In this document: in pieces, positions 32,258-58,940 of the stretch
Layout of the letters: each line of letters starts with the position of its first letter
How positions within the stretch are numbered: the stretch's first letter is position 1
Origin: an uncultured Bacteroidota bacterium
GTDB lineage: Bacteria; Bacteroidota; Bacteroidia; Bacteroidales; P3
Assembly: GCA_902778925.1 (NCBI GenBank)
Contig: CACYZN010000004.1
Span: 1 to 64,000, forward strand
Direction: 5' to 3'
DNA length: 64,000 bases
Notes under the pieces: model-generated
The model's input: only the letters and a program-made list of their open reading frames with translations
The model's database searches: none
What the model was told of the DNA's origin: nothing
Program-made: the position numbers and the translations under genes

Positions 32258-32370
32258 CCTCCGGTAGTTCTTATGTAGTTCTTATATCGTTCTTATGTAT
32301 TTCTTATGTTTTAAACATAAATACAACATAAGAAATACATAAGAAGTACATAAGAACGACCGGACCGGAA
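32258..32370. repeat. Palindromic 11-mer element, copy B
   Basis: CCTCCGGT, then four 11-bp units of type NNTTCTTATGT (32266-32309), a TTTAA centre, and four complementary units ending ACATAAGAACG (32358), then ACCGGACCGG. The ~25 nt upstream (AAAACCAGCTCCCC...) are shared with copy D. It lies about 90 nt upstream of the S46 peptidase -7 element. Confidence 0.9.
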
Positions 32371-32515: not shown

Positions 32516-34678
32516 ATGAAAGTTCGTACATTAGTAATGACCCTCGCGCTTGCGGTGCTGCTTCCCACTGCCGCTCGCGCCGACGAGGGAATGTGGCTCT
32601 TGTCGCTCATAGGCAAGAACTATTCCGACATGCAGAAAGCCGGCTTCAAACTGTCGCCGGAAGACATCTACAGCGTGAACCAAAGCTGCCTGAAGGACGC
32701 CATCGTGGGCCTGGGCAATGAAGGCACGCCGTTCTGGCACTTCTGCACCGGCGAGATCATCAGCAGCAAGGGTCTGATGAGCACCAACCACCACTGCGGC
32801 TACGGCAAGCTGCAGGAGCATTCGACCGTGGAGCACGACTACCTGCGCGACGGCTTCTGGGCCTACACCCTCGAGCAGGAGCTGCCCAACCCGGGCCTCA
32901 CCGCCTCGATACTGGTGCGTATGGAAGACGTAACCGACAGGGTGAAAGAGGCTCTGAGCGACGACATGAGCGAGACCGACCGCGAAGCCGCCATCAAGAA
33001 GGTGTGCACCGAAATCGAGGCCAGCGCCGTCGAAGGCACCCAGTACAGCGCCAAGGTGAAACCCATGTTCAACGGCAACCAGTTCTTCCTCTTCGTGCAC
33101 ATCATATACAAGGATGTCCGCCTGGTGGGCGCACCCCCCTCGTCGATGGGCAAGTTTGGCGGCGACACCGACAACTGGTCGTGGCCCCGTCACACCTGCG
33201 ACTTCTCGCTCTTCCGCATCTACACCGACAAGAACGGCAACCCTGCCCCCTACTCGAAGGACAACATACCCCTCACCCCGAAGCACCACCTGCCCGTGAG
33301 CGCCGGCGAGGTGAACGACGGCGACTTCGCCATGGTGATGGGTTTCCCCGGCACCACCGACCACTTCCTCACCAGCTACGGCCTCGAGGAGACCATGAAC
33401 ATCACCAACAAGCTGGTCTACGAAATCCGCACCGTGAAGATAAACATACTGCGCGAGGAGATGGCCACCAGCCAGGCCACCCGCATCAAATACGCCTCCA
33501 AGTATGCCAGCTGCTCCAACTACTGGAAGTACAGCAACGAGCAGAACAAGGCCCTGAAGGCCCTGAACACCATGGGCGTGAAGAAAGAGGTGGAGCGCGA
33601 ATATAGCGAATGGGCCCGCTTCCAGGCTCCGAAGTACACCCGCGCCCTCGAACTGATACGCGAAGGCTACGACGCCCGCCGCACCACCGAGGAAGCCAAC
33701 CTGTATGTGAGGGAAGGCCTCCTCTCGGGTTCCGAAGCACCCCTCTTTGCAGCCCGCTTGAGCCGCACCTTCAACCATCTGCTGGAGCAGGACAAGAATG
33801 CCGACCTCAGCCAATACAGAGGCTACATCGCCAATTTCTTCAAAGACTACGACCGCGAAGTCGACCAACGCCTCACCGCCGCCCTGTTCGGCTATGTCTA
33901 CTCGCACATGGACCCCGAATACTGCCCCGAATTCCTCAAAGCCGCCCAGAAGAAGTACAAGGGCAACTGGGAGAAATACGCTGCCGACCTCTACGAGAAG
34001 AGCATCTTCACCACGCCCGAGAAGCTGGCCAAGTACATGGAGAAGCCTTCCGTCAAGCCCCTCAAGAAAGATATCCTTGCCAAAGTCGGCAACGATGCGC
34101 TGGACCTCTACTTCAGCCTGCTTCAGGCTGTCCCCCAGCAAGCAGAAGAGGACTTGCAGCGCGGCATACGCGACTTCACCGACGGCATACTGCAAATCAA
34201 CGACAAGAACGGCAAGCTCATGTCGCCCGACGCCAACTCCACCATCCGCCTCACCTACGGCAACGTGATGAGCTACGATCCGCGCGACGGCGTCTCCTAC
34301 CACTACTACACCACCATGGCCGGCGTCATACAGAAGGAAGACCCCGAGAACTCGGAGTTCAACGTGCCCGAGCGCCTCAAGAAGCTCTACGGCGAGCGCA
34401 ACTTCGGCCCCTACGCCAACAAGAAAGGTGAGATGCCCACCTGCTTCATCACCAACAACGACATCACAGGCGGCAACAGCGGCTCGCCCGTCATCGACGC
34501 CCGTGGCCGCCTCATAGGCCTGGCCTTCGACGGCAACAGCGAAGCCATGAGCGGCGACATCGACTTCGAGGAGAACCTGCAGCGCTGCATCTGCCTCGAC
34601 AGCCGCTACATGCTCTGGGTCATCGACATCTACGCCGGTGCCAAGAACCTCATAGAAGAGATGGACATCGTAAGATGA
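32516..34678 (+). CDS. S46 family dipeptidyl-peptidase, DPP7 type
   Basis: 720 residues, usual for the family, with signal peptide MKVRTLVMTLALAVLLPTAARA. S46 enzymes release dipeptides from oligopeptides in the periplasm of protein-fermenting Bacteroidetes. The chymotrypsin-like triad appears as His93 in STNHHCGYG, Asp229 in PRHTCDFS, and Ser655 in GGNSGSPVID. The residue 18 after the Ser (673, in AFDGN) is Gly. In characterised members Gly there goes with DPP7 (hydrophobic P1) and Arg with DPP11 (Asp/Glu P1), so DPP7-like specificity is inferred. Its stop overlaps the next start in ATGA. Confidence 0.95.
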   Translation: MKVRTLVMTLALAVLLPTAARADEGMWLLSLIGKNYSDMQKAGFKLSPEDIYSVNQSCLKDAIVGLGNEGTPFWHFCTGEIISSKGLMSTNHHCGYGKLQEHSTVEHDYLRDGFWAYTLEQELPNPGLTASILVRMEDVTDRVKEALSDDMSETDREAAIKKVCTEIEASAVEGTQYSAKVKPMFNGNQFFLFVHIIYKDVRLVGAPPSSMGKFGGDTDNWSWPRHTCDFSLFRIYTDKNGNPAPYSKDNIPLTPKHHLPVSAGEVNDGDFAMVMGFPGTTDHFLTSYGLEETMNITNKLVYEIRTVKINILREEMATSQATRIKYASKYASCSNYWKYSNEQNKALKALNTMGVKKEVEREYSEWARFQAPKYTRALELIREGYDARRTTEEANLYVREGLLSGSEAPLFAARLSRTFNHLLEQDKNADLSQYRGYIANFFKDYDREVDQRLTAALFGYVYSHMDPEYCPEFLKAAQKKYKGNWEKYAADLYEKSIFTTPEKLAKYMEKPSVKPLKKDILAKVGNDALDLYFSLLQAVPQQAEEDLQRGIRDFTDGILQINDKNGKLMSPDANSTIRLTYGNVMSYDPRDGVSYHYYTTMAGVIQKEDPENSEFNVPERLKKLYGERNFGPYANKKGEMPTCFITNNDITGGNSGSPVIDARGRLIGLAFDGNSEAMSGDIDFEENLQRCICLDSRYMLWVIDIYAGAKNLIEEMDIVR

Positions 34679-36945
34679 AACAGGTACAGAGACAGCAACT
34701 GCAGCAGAAGTTCTCGCCTCAGCAGATACAGCTGATGCGACTGCTGCAGTTGCCTGTCACCGACCTGGAACAGGCCATCAAAGAAGAGATAGAGAAGAAC
34801 CCCCTGCTCGACGCCGAACCGCCCGACGAAGAACCGCTGCCGAGCACCGACCCCACAGAGTCGGACTGGGACAACAACGACGACGAGAACGAGGGCTTCG
34901 ACTACGACTACCGCGAGCACCTCGAGCAAGACCCCAACGCCACCCGCCGCGACTTCGTGGTGAGCGACACCAGTTCCTTTGCCGAGCGGCTGCTGCAGCA
35001 GCTCGCCCTCTCGGGCCTCGACAGCCGGCTCTTGGCTATCGCCACCGAGATCATAGGCTCGCTCGACGATGCCGGCTACCTGAGCCGCAGCCTCGACCTC
35101 ATAGCCAACGACCTCGCCTTCCGACAAGGCATTGAAGCCTCGGACAAGGAGATACAGCAAGCCCTCGAGGCGGTGCAAAGCCTCGACCCGCCGGGCATCG
35201 GGGCACGCAACCTGCAAGAGTGCCTTGCACTGCAACTGCGCCGCACAGCCGACCAGCCCGTGGCCCTCGACATCGTGCAGCACCACTTCGACGACTTCGC
35301 CAACCACCGCTACGAGCACATCTGCCAGTCGCTCGGCATCAGCCAACAGCAGTTCGACGAGGCGGCCGACGCCATACGCCACCTCAACCCCAAACCCGCC
35401 GGCTCCACCACCGACGACGTAGACACCGCAGCATATATCACCCCCGACATAGTGCTCACCCAGCACGACGGACAACTGCAGTTCTACGTCAACGACAGTC
35501 GTCTGCCCAAGCTGAGCCTCAACACCTACTACACCGACATGCTGCAGCAGATGGAGTCGAGCCATGGCGACAAAAGCACCATACAGTTCCTGCGCTCGAA
35601 GCAAGCCGACGCGCAAGGCTTCATCGACCTGCTGGCCCAGCGGCACGAGACCATAGTGCGCATCATGCGCTACATCGTGCGCCACCAACGTCAGTTCCTG
35701 CTCAGCGGCAACCCCGACCTGCTGGTGCCCCTGCGCCAGCGCGAAGTGGCCGAAGCCACCGGACTCGACATCAGCACCATCTCGCGCATGGCCAACAGCA
35801 AGTACCTGCAGACCGACTTCGGCACCATACCCCTCAAGGACTGCTTCTCGAAAGGCATGGCCACCGAGGGCGGCGAGGAAGTGGCCGTGGAGACCATCAA
35901 GCAGCAACTGTCCGAACTGGTGGCCGACGAGGACAAGCACGCCCCGCTCTCGGACGACGCCTTGATGCACACCCTCAACGCCCGCGGCATACCGATAGCA
36001 CGGCGCACCGTGGCCAAATACCGCGAACAACTGGGGATACCGGTAGCACGCCTGCGCCGCATCGTCTCCATAGCGCTACTACTGCTGGGCATGCAGTACG
36101 CCGAGGCACAGGTGTCGTACTACGACAGCATCATATCCGCCCGCCTCGAGGCAGCGACACGACAGCCAGCACCGGCCAAGGCAGCACCGGCCGCGAATAC
36201 GGCCAAGACCGTCAAGCCTGCCAAAGCCGTTCCACAGCCAAAGCCCAAGCGAGAGCCCGCTACAGAGCCACCCACACAGGCCGCAGCCGATCCCGTCATA
36301 GTGCCCATGTGGTACGACGCCTTTCCCCAGAACCGCGTGAACCCCTTGGGACGCACCCGCGTGGACCAGCTGCCCGACGAGGTGAACCTGCGGCTGGCCA
36401 AGGACTCGGCCGACTTCTGCTTCCCTGTGTGCAACAGCAAGACCAGCCCCTACGGCTGGCGATGGCAACGTGGCCACCACGGCGTAGACATACGGCTACG
36501 CACCGGCGACCCCGTGCGCGCCGTGTTTGGCGGCACAGTCAGGGTGGCCTCGCGCATGGGCGGCTACGGCAACTGCATAGTGCTGCGCCACCCCAACGGT
36601 CTGGAGACCCTATATGGCCACCTGTCGAAGATAAACGTAAAGCATGGCCAGCAGGTGAATGCCGGCGAGGTGATAGGCCTCGGCGGCTCGACCGGCAACT
36701 CGACCGGTCCGCACCTGCATTTCGAATGCCGCTTCCTGTACCAGACCTTTGATCCGGAATGGATACTTGACTTCGACAACTACACCCTGCGCACCCGCCG
36801 GCTGCACCTCGACAAGAGTTACTTCGGCATTCACAAGCCAAAGAATGGCGAAGACCTTGAATACAAGGCCGACAACAGCAGCATCAAGGAGCCAAAGAAG
36901 AAGCGCAAGACACAACCTAAAGAATATACCGCGAAAGACTTTTAG
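34675..36945 (+). CDS. rpoN: Sigma-54 (RpoN) fused in frame to an M23 peptidase
   Basis: 756 residues in one uninterrupted frame. Residues 1 to about 460 are a complete sigma-54: the Gln-rich region I ([18 protein letters not shown]), an acidic linker, the core-binding region ([14 protein letters not shown]), the HTH ([23 protein letters not shown]) and the RpoN box [10 protein letters not shown] at 442-451. Only about 12 residues later a hydrophobic segment begins ([17 protein letters not shown], 463-479) that looks like a signal peptide with cleavage after 478. An Ala/Pro/Lys linker follows, and then an M23/LytM domain (about 560-700) with Zn ligands in GHHGVD (H601, D605) and HLHFE (H680, H682). 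Ordinary sigma-54 ends shortly after the RpoN box. No ATG, GTG or TTG lies at the expected M23 start, only CTG. It may be a true fusion, an ancestral stop/start pair lost by mutation, or a sequence error. Confidence 0.9.
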
Positions 36946-36947
36946 AC

Positions 36948-37442
36948 ATGAAGAAAACCAACCTGTCCGACTACGACCCCACGACCATACCCTCCGGCGA
37001 ACTCTTCCGCATTGCCGTCGTGGCCGCCGAGTGGAATGCCGAGGTGACCGAGCCTATGCTGAAAGGGGCTGTCGACACCCTGCTCGAGCACGGAGTGAAA
37101 GAAGACAACATCATTATTAAACACGTGCCCGGCACCTACGAACTCCCCTACGCAGCCGAATGGCTGATAGCCAACAACGACGTGCTCGATGCAGTAATCT
37201 GCATCGGATGCGTGATACAGGGTGAAACACGCCACTTCGAGTTCATCTGCCAAGCTGTGTCGCAAGGCCTGGTCAACGTATCGATAAAGAACGACGTGCC
37301 CGTCATATTCAGCGTCCTAACCTGCGATACCATGCAGCAGGCACTCGACCGTGCCGGCGGCAAGCATGGCAACAAAGGCGTCGAAGGCGCTGTCACAGCG
37401 CTCAAGATGTGCAAATTCTCTGAAGACTGCATAACCGACTGA
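36948..37442 (+). CDS. ribH: 6,7-dimethyl-8-ribityllumazine synthase RibH
   Basis: 164 residues. RibH condenses 5-amino-6-ribitylaminouracil with dihydroxybutanone phosphate, the penultimate step of riboflavin synthesis, usually in a large capsid-like assembly. Features are [21 protein letters not shown], the [15 protein letters not shown] motif, [17 protein letters not shown] with the catalytic His, and [17 protein letters not shown]. It starts 2 nt after the upstream stop; its stop overlaps the fmt start (TGATG). No FMN riboswitch is seen. Confidence 0.97.
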
Positions 37443-44449: not shown

Positions 44450-44552
44450 CCTCCGGTAGTTCTTATGTACTTCTTATGTATTTCTTATGTATTTCTTATG
44501 TTTTAAACATAAATACAACATAAGAAATACATAAGAACGAGACCGGACCGGA
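44450..44552. repeat. Palindromic 11-mer element, copy C
   Basis: CCTCCGGT, then four 11-bp units (AGTTCTTATGT, ACTTCTTATGT, and ATTTCTTATGT twice; 44458-44501), a TTTTAAA centre, and about three complementary units ending ACATAAGAACG, then GACCGGACCGGAG. The right arm is one unit shorter than the left. It lies about 80 nt upstream of the -33 element at 44630. Confidence 0.88.
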
Positions 44553-58860: not shown

Positions 58861-58940
58861 CCTCCGGTAGTTCTTATGTCGTTCTTATGTATTTCTTATG
58901 TATTTCTTATGTTTTAAACATAAATACAACATAAGATATA
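58861..58940. repeat. Palindromic 11-mer element, truncated copy D
   Basis: CCTCCGGT and four left-arm units (AGTTCTTATGT, CGTTCTTATGT, ATTTCTTATGT twice; 58869-58912), the TTTAAACATAAATACAACATAAGA centre, then the right arm breaks off after about one unit into TATAGAGG. The ~25 nt before it match those before copy B. The truncation point abuts a heptamer array. Confidence 0.85.

Follow-up and report, generated by a model that had tools for sequence, protein, structure and literature searches.

Sigma-54 joined in one reading frame to an M23 peptidase in rumen and gut Bacteroidales: a possible tie between a sigma factor and protein export

Sigma factors are usually soluble and are controlled by separate anti-sigma factors or, in the case of sigma-54, by activators. 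In the window, by which we mean the whole 64-kb stretch of DNA that was analysed, one reading frame is open from an ATG at 34675 to a stop codon at 36943-36945 and encodes 756 residues in which sigma-54 (1-462) is followed by a signal-peptide-like segment (463-478) and, further on, by an M23 peptidase domain (600-694). The locus raises the question of whether such a fusion is real and, if so, what it might mean for a sigma factor to lie ahead of an exported enzyme. The features are as follows.

32516..34678, + strand: S46 dipeptidyl-peptidase gene, upstream neighbour (ORF, Pfam)
34675..36945, + strand: rpoN::M23 fusion gene, 756 aa (ORF translation, Pfam)
34678..34812, + strand: sigma-54 activator-interacting domain (region I), aa 2-46 (Pfam PF00309, Sigma54_AID)
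34960..35532, + strand: sigma-54 core-binding domain, aa 96-286 (Pfam PF04963, Sigma54_CBD)
35584..36060, + strand: sigma-54 DNA-binding domain, aa 304-462 (Pfam PF04552, Sigma54_DBD)
35998-36027, + strand: RpoN box (ARRT-KYR), aa 442-451, inside Sigma54_DBD
36061..36108, + strand: signal peptide hydrophobic and c-region, aa 463-478, predicted cleavage before Q479 (sequence, hydrophobic run of fusions, AlphaFold helix)
36109..36375, + strand: variable, probably disordered linker, aa 479-567, after a conserved SYYDSI-type mature start (pLDDT, alignment)
36472..36756, + strand: M23 peptidase domain, aa 600-694, with H601, D605, H649, H680 and H682 (Pfam PF01551)
36948..37442, + strand: ribH (lumazine synthase), downstream neighbour (Pfam)

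All four Pfam matches of the fusion lie above their cut-offs, and its score against the rpoN equivalog TIGR02395 is 412.4 (cut-off 277.35). The sigma-54 half is complete, because the alignment with the best solved sigma-54 chain extends to residue 474 of 477. Canonical RpoN shares the three Pfam domains and the RpoN box, but its chains stop at almost the same position, a few residues away at most, whereas the fusion runs on for ∼290 residues beyond the normal sigma-54 end, into the signal peptide and the enzyme. There Pfam finds M23 only, and no anti-sigma domain. The M23 domain, from a family of wall-cutting enzymes, has the HxxxD, YGH and HLH motifs, and from M23 family roles we take the five listed residues to be the ligand and catalytic residues; Foldseek matches the fusion to M23 chains with a best E-value of 6.4e-10. 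AlphaFold gives the domain folds but not the domain arrangement (pTM 0.41), with a helix at 458-477 and pLDDT below 50 at 497-560. The preliminary description of this DNA, which placed sigma-54, signal peptide and M23 peptidase in a single frame at these coordinates, is borne out by the RpoN box, the Pfam matches and the M23 motifs. The stop codon of the S46 dipeptidyl-peptidase gene overlaps the start of the fusion (ATGA), and ribH is the downstream neighbour in other Bacteroidales loci read as well.

We examined 120 genomes of the genus and could read the junction in 116, where 85 have an unbroken fusion, 29 have two separate genes and 2 lack M23 in the stretch read. Among titled assemblies the same unbroken frame occurs in 37 of 45 loci, a count that cannot be added to that of the congeners because some assemblies are common to both sets. 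The most divergent fusions in congeners are only 44-52% identical to the protein of the window. All of these data are assemblies, mostly metagenomic, and an assembly or base error might therefore be suspected; the uninterrupted frame in 85 congeners at such divergence excludes chance or base error, so that we give this explanation virtually no credence and regard it as refuted for the clade. A private mutation is rejected on the same count. The carriers of the fusion are a group of Bacteroidales from rumen and gut. In same-order genomes outside the family an rpoN match was found in at least 22 of 24, and among the matches listed, taken without reading junctions individually, no single one spans both halves.

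The preliminary description had argued that relatives with a stop codon after the RpoN box would mark the fusion as an error or private mutation, a rule that fails since such relatives exist and yet 85 of 116 are fused. Its suggestion that relatives be searched for the fusion or for adjacent separate genes yielded both states, and its alternative, the loss of an ancestral stop/start pair, stands as history: the pair was lost long ago, not privately in the window genome. In two of the 29 separate-gene congeners, G105 and G132, rpoN and M23 overlap by ATGA, and the two genes are close together in 3 of the 8 non-fused titled loci read, which belong to other Bacteroidales. The separate M23 neighbours are the best blastp partners in the separate-gene congeners. 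A tightly ATGA-coupled gene pair could fuse without any gain, a consideration that counts against the export-coupled reading proposed below.

These neighbourhoods, together with the same kind of signal peptide on the separate M23 proteins, would fit the view that the fusion is a constitutive polyprotein produced by operon compaction, cut by signal peptidase at a constant rate and then trimmed, with both parts working as before and nothing sensed. Two changes on the tree are enough to account for the fusion state, so it may reflect simple inheritance. If it did nothing, however, having a sigma factor of the cytoplasm tied to a secretory precursor should carry a cost, yet the fused clades on the tree show no fission. 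We consider the polyprotein somewhat unlikely.

Both halves are under purifying selection in 9 close pairs, where dN is well below dS (sigma-54 half, dN 0.014-0.075 and dS 0.087-1.104; M23 half, dN 0-0.064 and dS 0.105-1.13). Across 49 aligned fusions A442, R443, R444, T445, Y449 and R450 of the RpoN box are invariant, as are M23 residues H601, D605, H649, H680 and H682. All 85 fusions contain RRT[VI], and 82 have the strict M23 pattern, the other three retaining the same H and D residues by eye. The M23 domain with its intact metal residues is shared with the secreted M23 peptidases, some with LysM, that lie beside rpoN in Bacteroidales; there the peptidase is a separate gene with its own start, whereas the M23 of the fusion has none, and the window clade is without the C-terminal LysM-like tail.

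At the junction R461-R462 is followed by the 16 residues 463-478 and then Q479. By simple hydrophobicity and pattern measures the features recognised by Sec and signal peptidase I (basic n-region, h-region, small residues at -3/-1) are found in 85 of 85 fusions, always in the order basic end, short hydrophobic run, small residue and Q, the last step according to a broad pattern. The hydrophobic run lies 20-25 residues after the start of the RpoN box in every case, and the lowest best-10 Kyte-Doolittle mean is 2.22. The best-19 mean is 1.37 for the window fusion, and 27 of 85 fusions reach 1.8; a strong transmembrane anchor is not favoured. Unlike an N-terminal signal, this one is internal and preceded by ∼460 residues of sigma-54. 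The basic sigma-54 end, short hydrophobic run and A-x-A before Q fit an N-in/C-out export signal, as had been proposed for this segment. Because separate M23 genes also encode signal peptides, the signal was inherited with the gene and not acquired for signalling, a point against the export-coupled reading.

One frame might nevertheless give two products, if an extra start inside the end of sigma-54 were to yield a normal exported M23 peptidase, with the long product minor. In the window the GTG of V446 is the only start codon from residue 433 to the hydrophobic run and would give a plausible n-region; an in-frame GTG at the V of RRTV is present in 68 of 85 fusions, and third-base entropy is low (0.16) at R444, just ahead of it. 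The same GTG, however, occurs in 18 of 28 separate rpoN genes, and its excess over general valine codon use (GTG share 241/579 in separate rpoN, 1175/2116 in fusions) is alike in the two groups, so that it is not fusion-specific. It is absent from 17 of 85 fusions, five of the 85 lack any start codon between box and hydrophobic run, in G020 the lack extends back to 15 codons before the box, and third-base entropy over 440-462 is 1.32 as compared with 1.24 for the whole gene. Comparing the 85 fusions and the separate rpoN genes we found no conserved internal start codon at the junction. A conserved start is unsupported; the V446 GTG and the low R444 entropy leave a minor rival that we consider very unlikely.

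Sigma54_DBD has one match in the genome, the fusion itself, which is thus the only sigma-54 found. Of sigma-54 activators there is a single strong one, with AAA+ and Fis HTH; Pfam detects no receiver domain in it, and it has a relative in 111 of 120 genomes. One M50 site-2 protease gene is also present. Within the 64-kb window no exact sigma-54 site was found and one-mismatch sites are at chance (6 versus 5.06 expected), while a scan for sigma-70-type promoters and terminators gave nothing useful. Genome-wide counts of -24/-12 sites with looser patterns gave mixed controls (N5, 109 versus 72; N6, 72 versus 160 for the reversed control) and were therefore replaced by a stricter site and a secA test, each with off-spacing and opposite-strand controls. 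A first look at 30 matching loci had returned mostly in-gene noise, secA being the exception; since the secA test was prompted by this same genome, it is independent in relatives only.

The strict site, TGGCAYGNNTTTTGNW, occurs at 22 places in 11 chosen fused genomes, as compared with 4 for the control, the pattern read backwards. At 19 of these places the site faces a gene that can be recognised (secA 7, trx 3, degP-like 3, porU 2, tolC-like 2, lon 1, prfA 1), and representatives of these were checked. In 15 separate genomes the strict site barely exceeds its control, 20 versus 13, and of the 38 sites in that survey 28 face no recognised gene. Upstream of secA, TGGCAYG-N4-TTGNW is present in 22 of the 61 fused genomes but in none of the 20 separate ones, and of the 83 regions none has it with spacing N2, N3, N5 or N6 or on the opposite strand; 39 of the 61 fused genomes are without the strict site, and the -12 form is TTGC in only 8 of 61, with TTGA or TTGT in many. 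After start-finding rules the secA scans covered 27 of 30 loci, then 88 of 99 regions and then 83 of 99; G093 and G098, both fused and with a site in the first scan, were lost from later ones, and the partial secA match of G034 was left out. The contrast between fused and separate genomes, which speaks against a polyprotein that senses nothing, is confounded by phylogeny, with 1 independent pair on supported branches in which the site did not differ, and Fisher values are descriptive only.

Judged by the candidate sites, the putative sigma-54 targets concern secretion and protein quality control, not the wall remodelling suggested earlier. The sigma-54 regulon of Flavobacterium psychrophilum, as far as its published selection extends, includes GroES/EL, Lon, ClpB and a thioredoxin family protein and so shares protein quality control and envelope stress with our candidate targets; secA is outside that selection, PorU falls under another motif (SM6) and no fusion is described in it (PMC9723704).

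The candidate quality-control targets, a type II arrangement and the M50 protease would also suit a regulated release, in which sigma-54, with the fusion cut or uncut, is held inactive at the membrane until an envelope signal on the periplasmic part leads to cutting and a site-2 protease frees it. IutY-type ECF sigma factors offer a precedent: IutY is fused to a membrane anti-sigma and is released by Prc and RseP (PMC8999054), and in both cases the sigma factor continues at its C-terminus into a part that crosses, or would cross, the membrane and could be released by proteolysis. IutY belongs, however, to the sigma-70 family and to cell-surface signalling, and has an anti-sigma domain, whereas the fusion has sigma-54, a peptidase as its presumed periplasmic part and a junction that resembles a cleavable signal peptide rather than a long anchor. 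If signal peptidase cuts constitutively, no gate is evident, and we regard regulated release as quite unlikely.

We tentatively propose instead that sigma-54 is a secretory precursor whose activity would depend on Sec export and signal peptidase. In a single polypeptide an internal Sec signal peptide would use the sigma-54 C-terminus as its n-region and lead into the exported M23 peptidase. SecA/SecYEG would insert the chain so that sigma-54 stays cytoplasmic while the peptidase reaches the periplasm. Signal peptidase I would cut before Q479, which would free the peptidase but keep sigma-54 attached to the membrane by a short stub, open to later trimming by a site-2 protease. RseP cleaves type II segments after their periplasmic part has been removed by leader peptidase (PMC8144685). 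Export efficiency would then set the amount of free sigma-54: exported molecules would be tethered or consumed, while those failing export would stay free and turn on secretion and quality-control genes, including secA, in a homeostatic loop. Translation as one chain with targeting to Sec is probable; given these, a meaningful coupling of sigma-54 activity to export is slightly favoured, and given coupling, that failed export should give free, active sigma-54 is fairly likely.

The proposed logic resembles that of the SecM-SecA monitor of E. coli, where secA expression responds to Sec capacity through the translation arrest of an exported protein, whereas the sigma factor of the fusion would act on transcription. 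ATFS-1 of C. elegans, a transcription factor with a transport signal that is active when transport fails (PMC5835775), is a eukaryotic bZIP protein of mitochondrial import with no homology to the fusion, and would share with it the proposed logic only. That the fusion is a bacterial counterpart, its unexported sigma-54 fraction reporting Sec and signal-peptidase capacity, raising secA and periplasmic quality control and standing in for the sensory domain absent from the single activator, is an analogy that we consider rather unlikely.

We found no description of a sigma-54::M23 fusion in the literature searched, which covered few subscription papers and no bioRxiv preprints. In these bacteria an enzyme destined for export appears to be physically joined to a master regulator, possibly as a gauge of export performance. 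If so, a sigma-54 that forms the N-terminal part of such an enzyme would depart from the rule that sigma factors are soluble, and a sigma-54 dose tied to protein export would constitute a transcriptional gauge of Sec capacity in bacteria.

The fusion gene is a single open frame whose product joins sigma-54 to an M23 peptidase domain, with the following features.

34675-36945, + strand: fusion gene, single open frame, 756 aa
residues 2-46, 96-286 and 304-462: three sigma-54 domains, each above the Pfam cut-off
residues 600-694: Peptidase_M23, above the Pfam cut-off

The rpoN_sigma model TIGR02395 matches end to end over residues 7-462 with 412.4 bits (cut-off 277.35), and the alignment to the best solved sigma-54 chain reaches residue 474 of its 477, so that the fusion protein runs on past the normal sigma-54 end. 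R461-R462 are followed by a 16-residue stretch and then by Q479. The preliminary description, a full sigma-54, a signal-peptide-like segment and an M23 domain in one frame, is thus borne out by Pfam, TIGR02395 and the sequence itself. In an AlphaFold model that drew on 49 fusion sequences, the sigma-54 and M23 domains are both predicted confidently, residues 458-477 form a helix and confidence is low over 497-560; the overall values are a mean pLDDT of 73.9 and a pTM of 0.41, the latter making the relative domain placement uninformative. Foldseek groups the sigma-54 part with RNA polymerase sigma-54 (best E 3.3e-30) and the peptidase part with M23 chains (best E 6.4e-10). The short C-terminal tail (36757-36945) is lysine-rich in the window clade, which has apparently lost the LysM-like domain found at the end of other fusions and of separate M23 genes.

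Judged from substitution patterns, both halves of the fusion are in use, because dN lies far under dS in nine close pairs (sigma-54, dN 0.014-0.075 and dS 0.087-1.104; M23, dN 0-0.064 and dS 0.105-1.13) and H601, D605, H649, H680 and H682 of the peptidase are invariant across 49 aligned fusions. The strict M23 motif is matched in 82 of 85 fusions, the other three keeping the same residues with changes at adjacent positions. The signal region is short and variable, and saturated in one pair (dN 2.5 over 18 codons).

The junction is a predicted signal peptide. In all 85 fusions the most hydrophobic 10-residue run begins 20-25 residues past the start of the RpoN box (Kyte-Doolittle mean 3.06, minimum 2.22), and a broad pattern finds a small residue directly before Q at a suitable distance in 85/85. 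The 19-residue hydrophobicity maximum averages 1.66 (1.37 in the window; at least 1.8 in 27/85), slightly below the 1.82 of 28 separate M23 genes, and this low maximum places the junction closer to a cleavable signal than to a long anchor. The alternative to one chain is an internal start, for which the window offers the GTG of V446, its sole ATG, GTG or TTG from residue 434 to the hydrophobic run. This codon occurs in 68/85 fusions and in 18/28 separate rpoN genes, in both more often, and to a similar degree, than valine codon use in general would give; five of the 85 fusions have no start codon after the RpoN box, and in the congener G020 start codons are absent from 15 codons upstream of the box onward. 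Fourfold-site entropy in 43 fusions is 1.32 over residues 440-462 (15 columns) versus 1.24 for the gene (197 columns), with low single columns at R444 (0.16) and V446 (0.89). Because the GTG is shared with separate genes, starts are missing in some fusions and the entropy is not low, a conserved internal start is unlikely in general, although many genomes, the window's included, may have one.

The fusion is widespread in the genus. Across all 120 congeneric genomes the junction could be read in 116, the rpoN locus not being found in four (G003, G032, G062, G143). The earlier concern was that relatives with a stop codon and a separate M23 gene would make the fusion an error or a private mutation; such relatives exist, with different frames or a stop between the halves in 29/116 (including G132, at a contig edge, and G120, whose sigma-54 frame is truncated), yet 85/116 carry both halves in one uninterrupted frame. 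M23 was not found in the stretch read for G013 and G077; in G013 (locus L036) ribH directly follows rpoN with no M23 between. The fusion is also present in 37/45 loci from titled public genomes, which are MAGs of uncultured Bacteroidales or Bacteroidetes, many of ruminant rumen and gut origin; several are the same assemblies as the congeners, so that the two sets are not additive.

In the window the stop of an S46 dipeptidyl-peptidase gene overlaps the fusion start as ATGA (34675-34678), and ribH begins 3 bases past the fusion stop, making a very tight cluster. Two-gene congeners have rpoN, then M23, usually then ribH, and in G105 (L165) and G132 (L164) an ATGA overlap joins the end of rpoN to the start of M23, a likely stage preceding fusion. 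The three loci read among eight non-fused titled ones, all from other Bacteroidales, have the order rpoN, a hydrophobic-looking ORF of ∼208-212 aa (L074 5421-6047, L076 5427-6053, L080 5411-6049; no Pfam match for the L074 copy), M23 with LysM, ribH and fmt. For 24 genomes from other families of the same order, taken from match lists rather than junctions, rpoN matches in 22, and no single match spans both halves among the matches listed. On a quick sigma-54 tree (115 rows, 112 genomes plus 3 outgroup loci, without G120, G132, G013 and G077) the fused/separate state requires two changes, against an average of 26.7 in shuffles (0/500 as low). The two changes would fit one gain and a reversal or two gains alike; support for the deep forks is weak.

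For one continuous chain we propose that the basic end of sigma-54 would provide the n-region for an internal signal, that Sec would insert the chain and that a signal peptidase cut before Q479 would release M23 outside, with sigma-54 remaining on a membrane stub. E. coli RseP, a site-2 protease, is reported to take leader-peptidase-trimmed type II segments as substrates (PMC8144685), and IutY sets a precedent for the release of a membrane-extended sigma factor in this manner (PMC8999054). The window's genome has one M50 protease gene. Failed export would leave sigma-54 free and active, a homeostatic loop whose direction we infer, paralleling ATFS-1, which is active on import failure (PMC5835775).

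The same genome has one Sigma54_DBD match and four Sigma54_activat matches, one strong (E 1e-65) and three weak that are probably other AAA+ proteins; the family alone is not specific, matching in all 14 control genomes as well. The strong activator (410 aa; GAFTGA, AAA lid, Fis HTH) has no receiver domain by Pfam; relatives occur in 111/120 genomes, with further copies in some. Its gene (L167 1431-2663, - strand) lies between ORFs named by eye as dnaG-like and aroA-like. Sigma-54 is reported to govern protein quality control and envelope stress in F. psychrophilum (PMC9723704), and grpE and groES are reported as sigma-54-dependent in B. thetaiotaomicron (PMC12316311).

Candidate sites were sought genome-wide. 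Across 11 chosen fused genomes the strict site TGGCAYGNNTTTTGNW was counted 22 times, versus 4 for the reversed pattern, and 19 occurrences lie in front of a recognisable gene (secA 7, thioredoxin 3, DegP/HtrA-like 3, PorU 2, outer-membrane efflux protein (OEP) 2, Lon 1, prfA 1), three facing none. Representatives were checked against family models (SecA, Trypsin_2/PDZ, Peptidase_C25/PorU, OEP, Lon, thioredoxin, prfA), and the remainder were assigned by eye on the basis of the same N-terminal sequences; several NCBIfam scores fall below cut-off, mostly for ORFs cut at a locus end, as does the DegP-like protein (364.6 vs 416.2). In 23 further genomes there are 38 occurrences: 20 versus 13 control in 15 separate genomes, and 18 versus 1 in 8 fused ones, ten of them in G016 (L255, L270, L277, L281-L287; 0 control), with few recognised genes beyond lon. 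Recognised genes follow ten of the 38 occurrences (secA 2, lon 2, Clp ATPase 2, OEP 2, degP-like 1, GroES 1), the other 28 facing none. Three copies of a 34-base inverted-repeat element rich in A+T, TTCTTATGTTTTAAACATAAATACAACATAAGAA, lie in the window (32301-32334, 44493-44526, 58904-58937; chance expectation none), upstream of the S46/rpoN genes among other places, and a further copy lies upstream of secA (L173 1338-1371).

The window's genome has an exact TGGCAC-N5-TTGCT 64 nt upstream of secA. A secA match was obtained in 100/120 genomes, giving 99 upstream regions, 83 with a start found; TGGCAYG-N4-TTGNW lies within 200 nt upstream in 22/61 fused versus 0/20 separate genomes, while control spacings N2, N3, N5 and N6 and the opposite strand give 0/83. 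An alternative start rule (88 regions read) gives 21/61 versus 0/25. The positions range from -53 to -184, so the sites are not simply unchanged inherited sequence. The strict site is absent in 39/61 fused genomes, and the TTGC form is present in only 8/61. The fused/separate contrast contains one independent supported pair, whose members do not differ at the site, so that association of the site with the fusion is not proven. The window's genome contains a second secA-like frame (contig C46, 984-1406), 77% identical and in an open frame of 1112 aa, which may represent a paralogue or a foreign contig that entered the bin; other congeners listed have one secA match each.

The main rival is a silent polyprotein, a fusion with no signalling role. 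Freeing of active sigma-54 by export failure would be the simplest homeostatic logic, given the single receiver-less activator and secA among the candidate targets. ECF sigma factors that carry membrane extensions are known; we know of no sigma-54 with one, and no case was found in the literature searched. If an export gauge of this kind were shown, it would represent a novel type of regulation.
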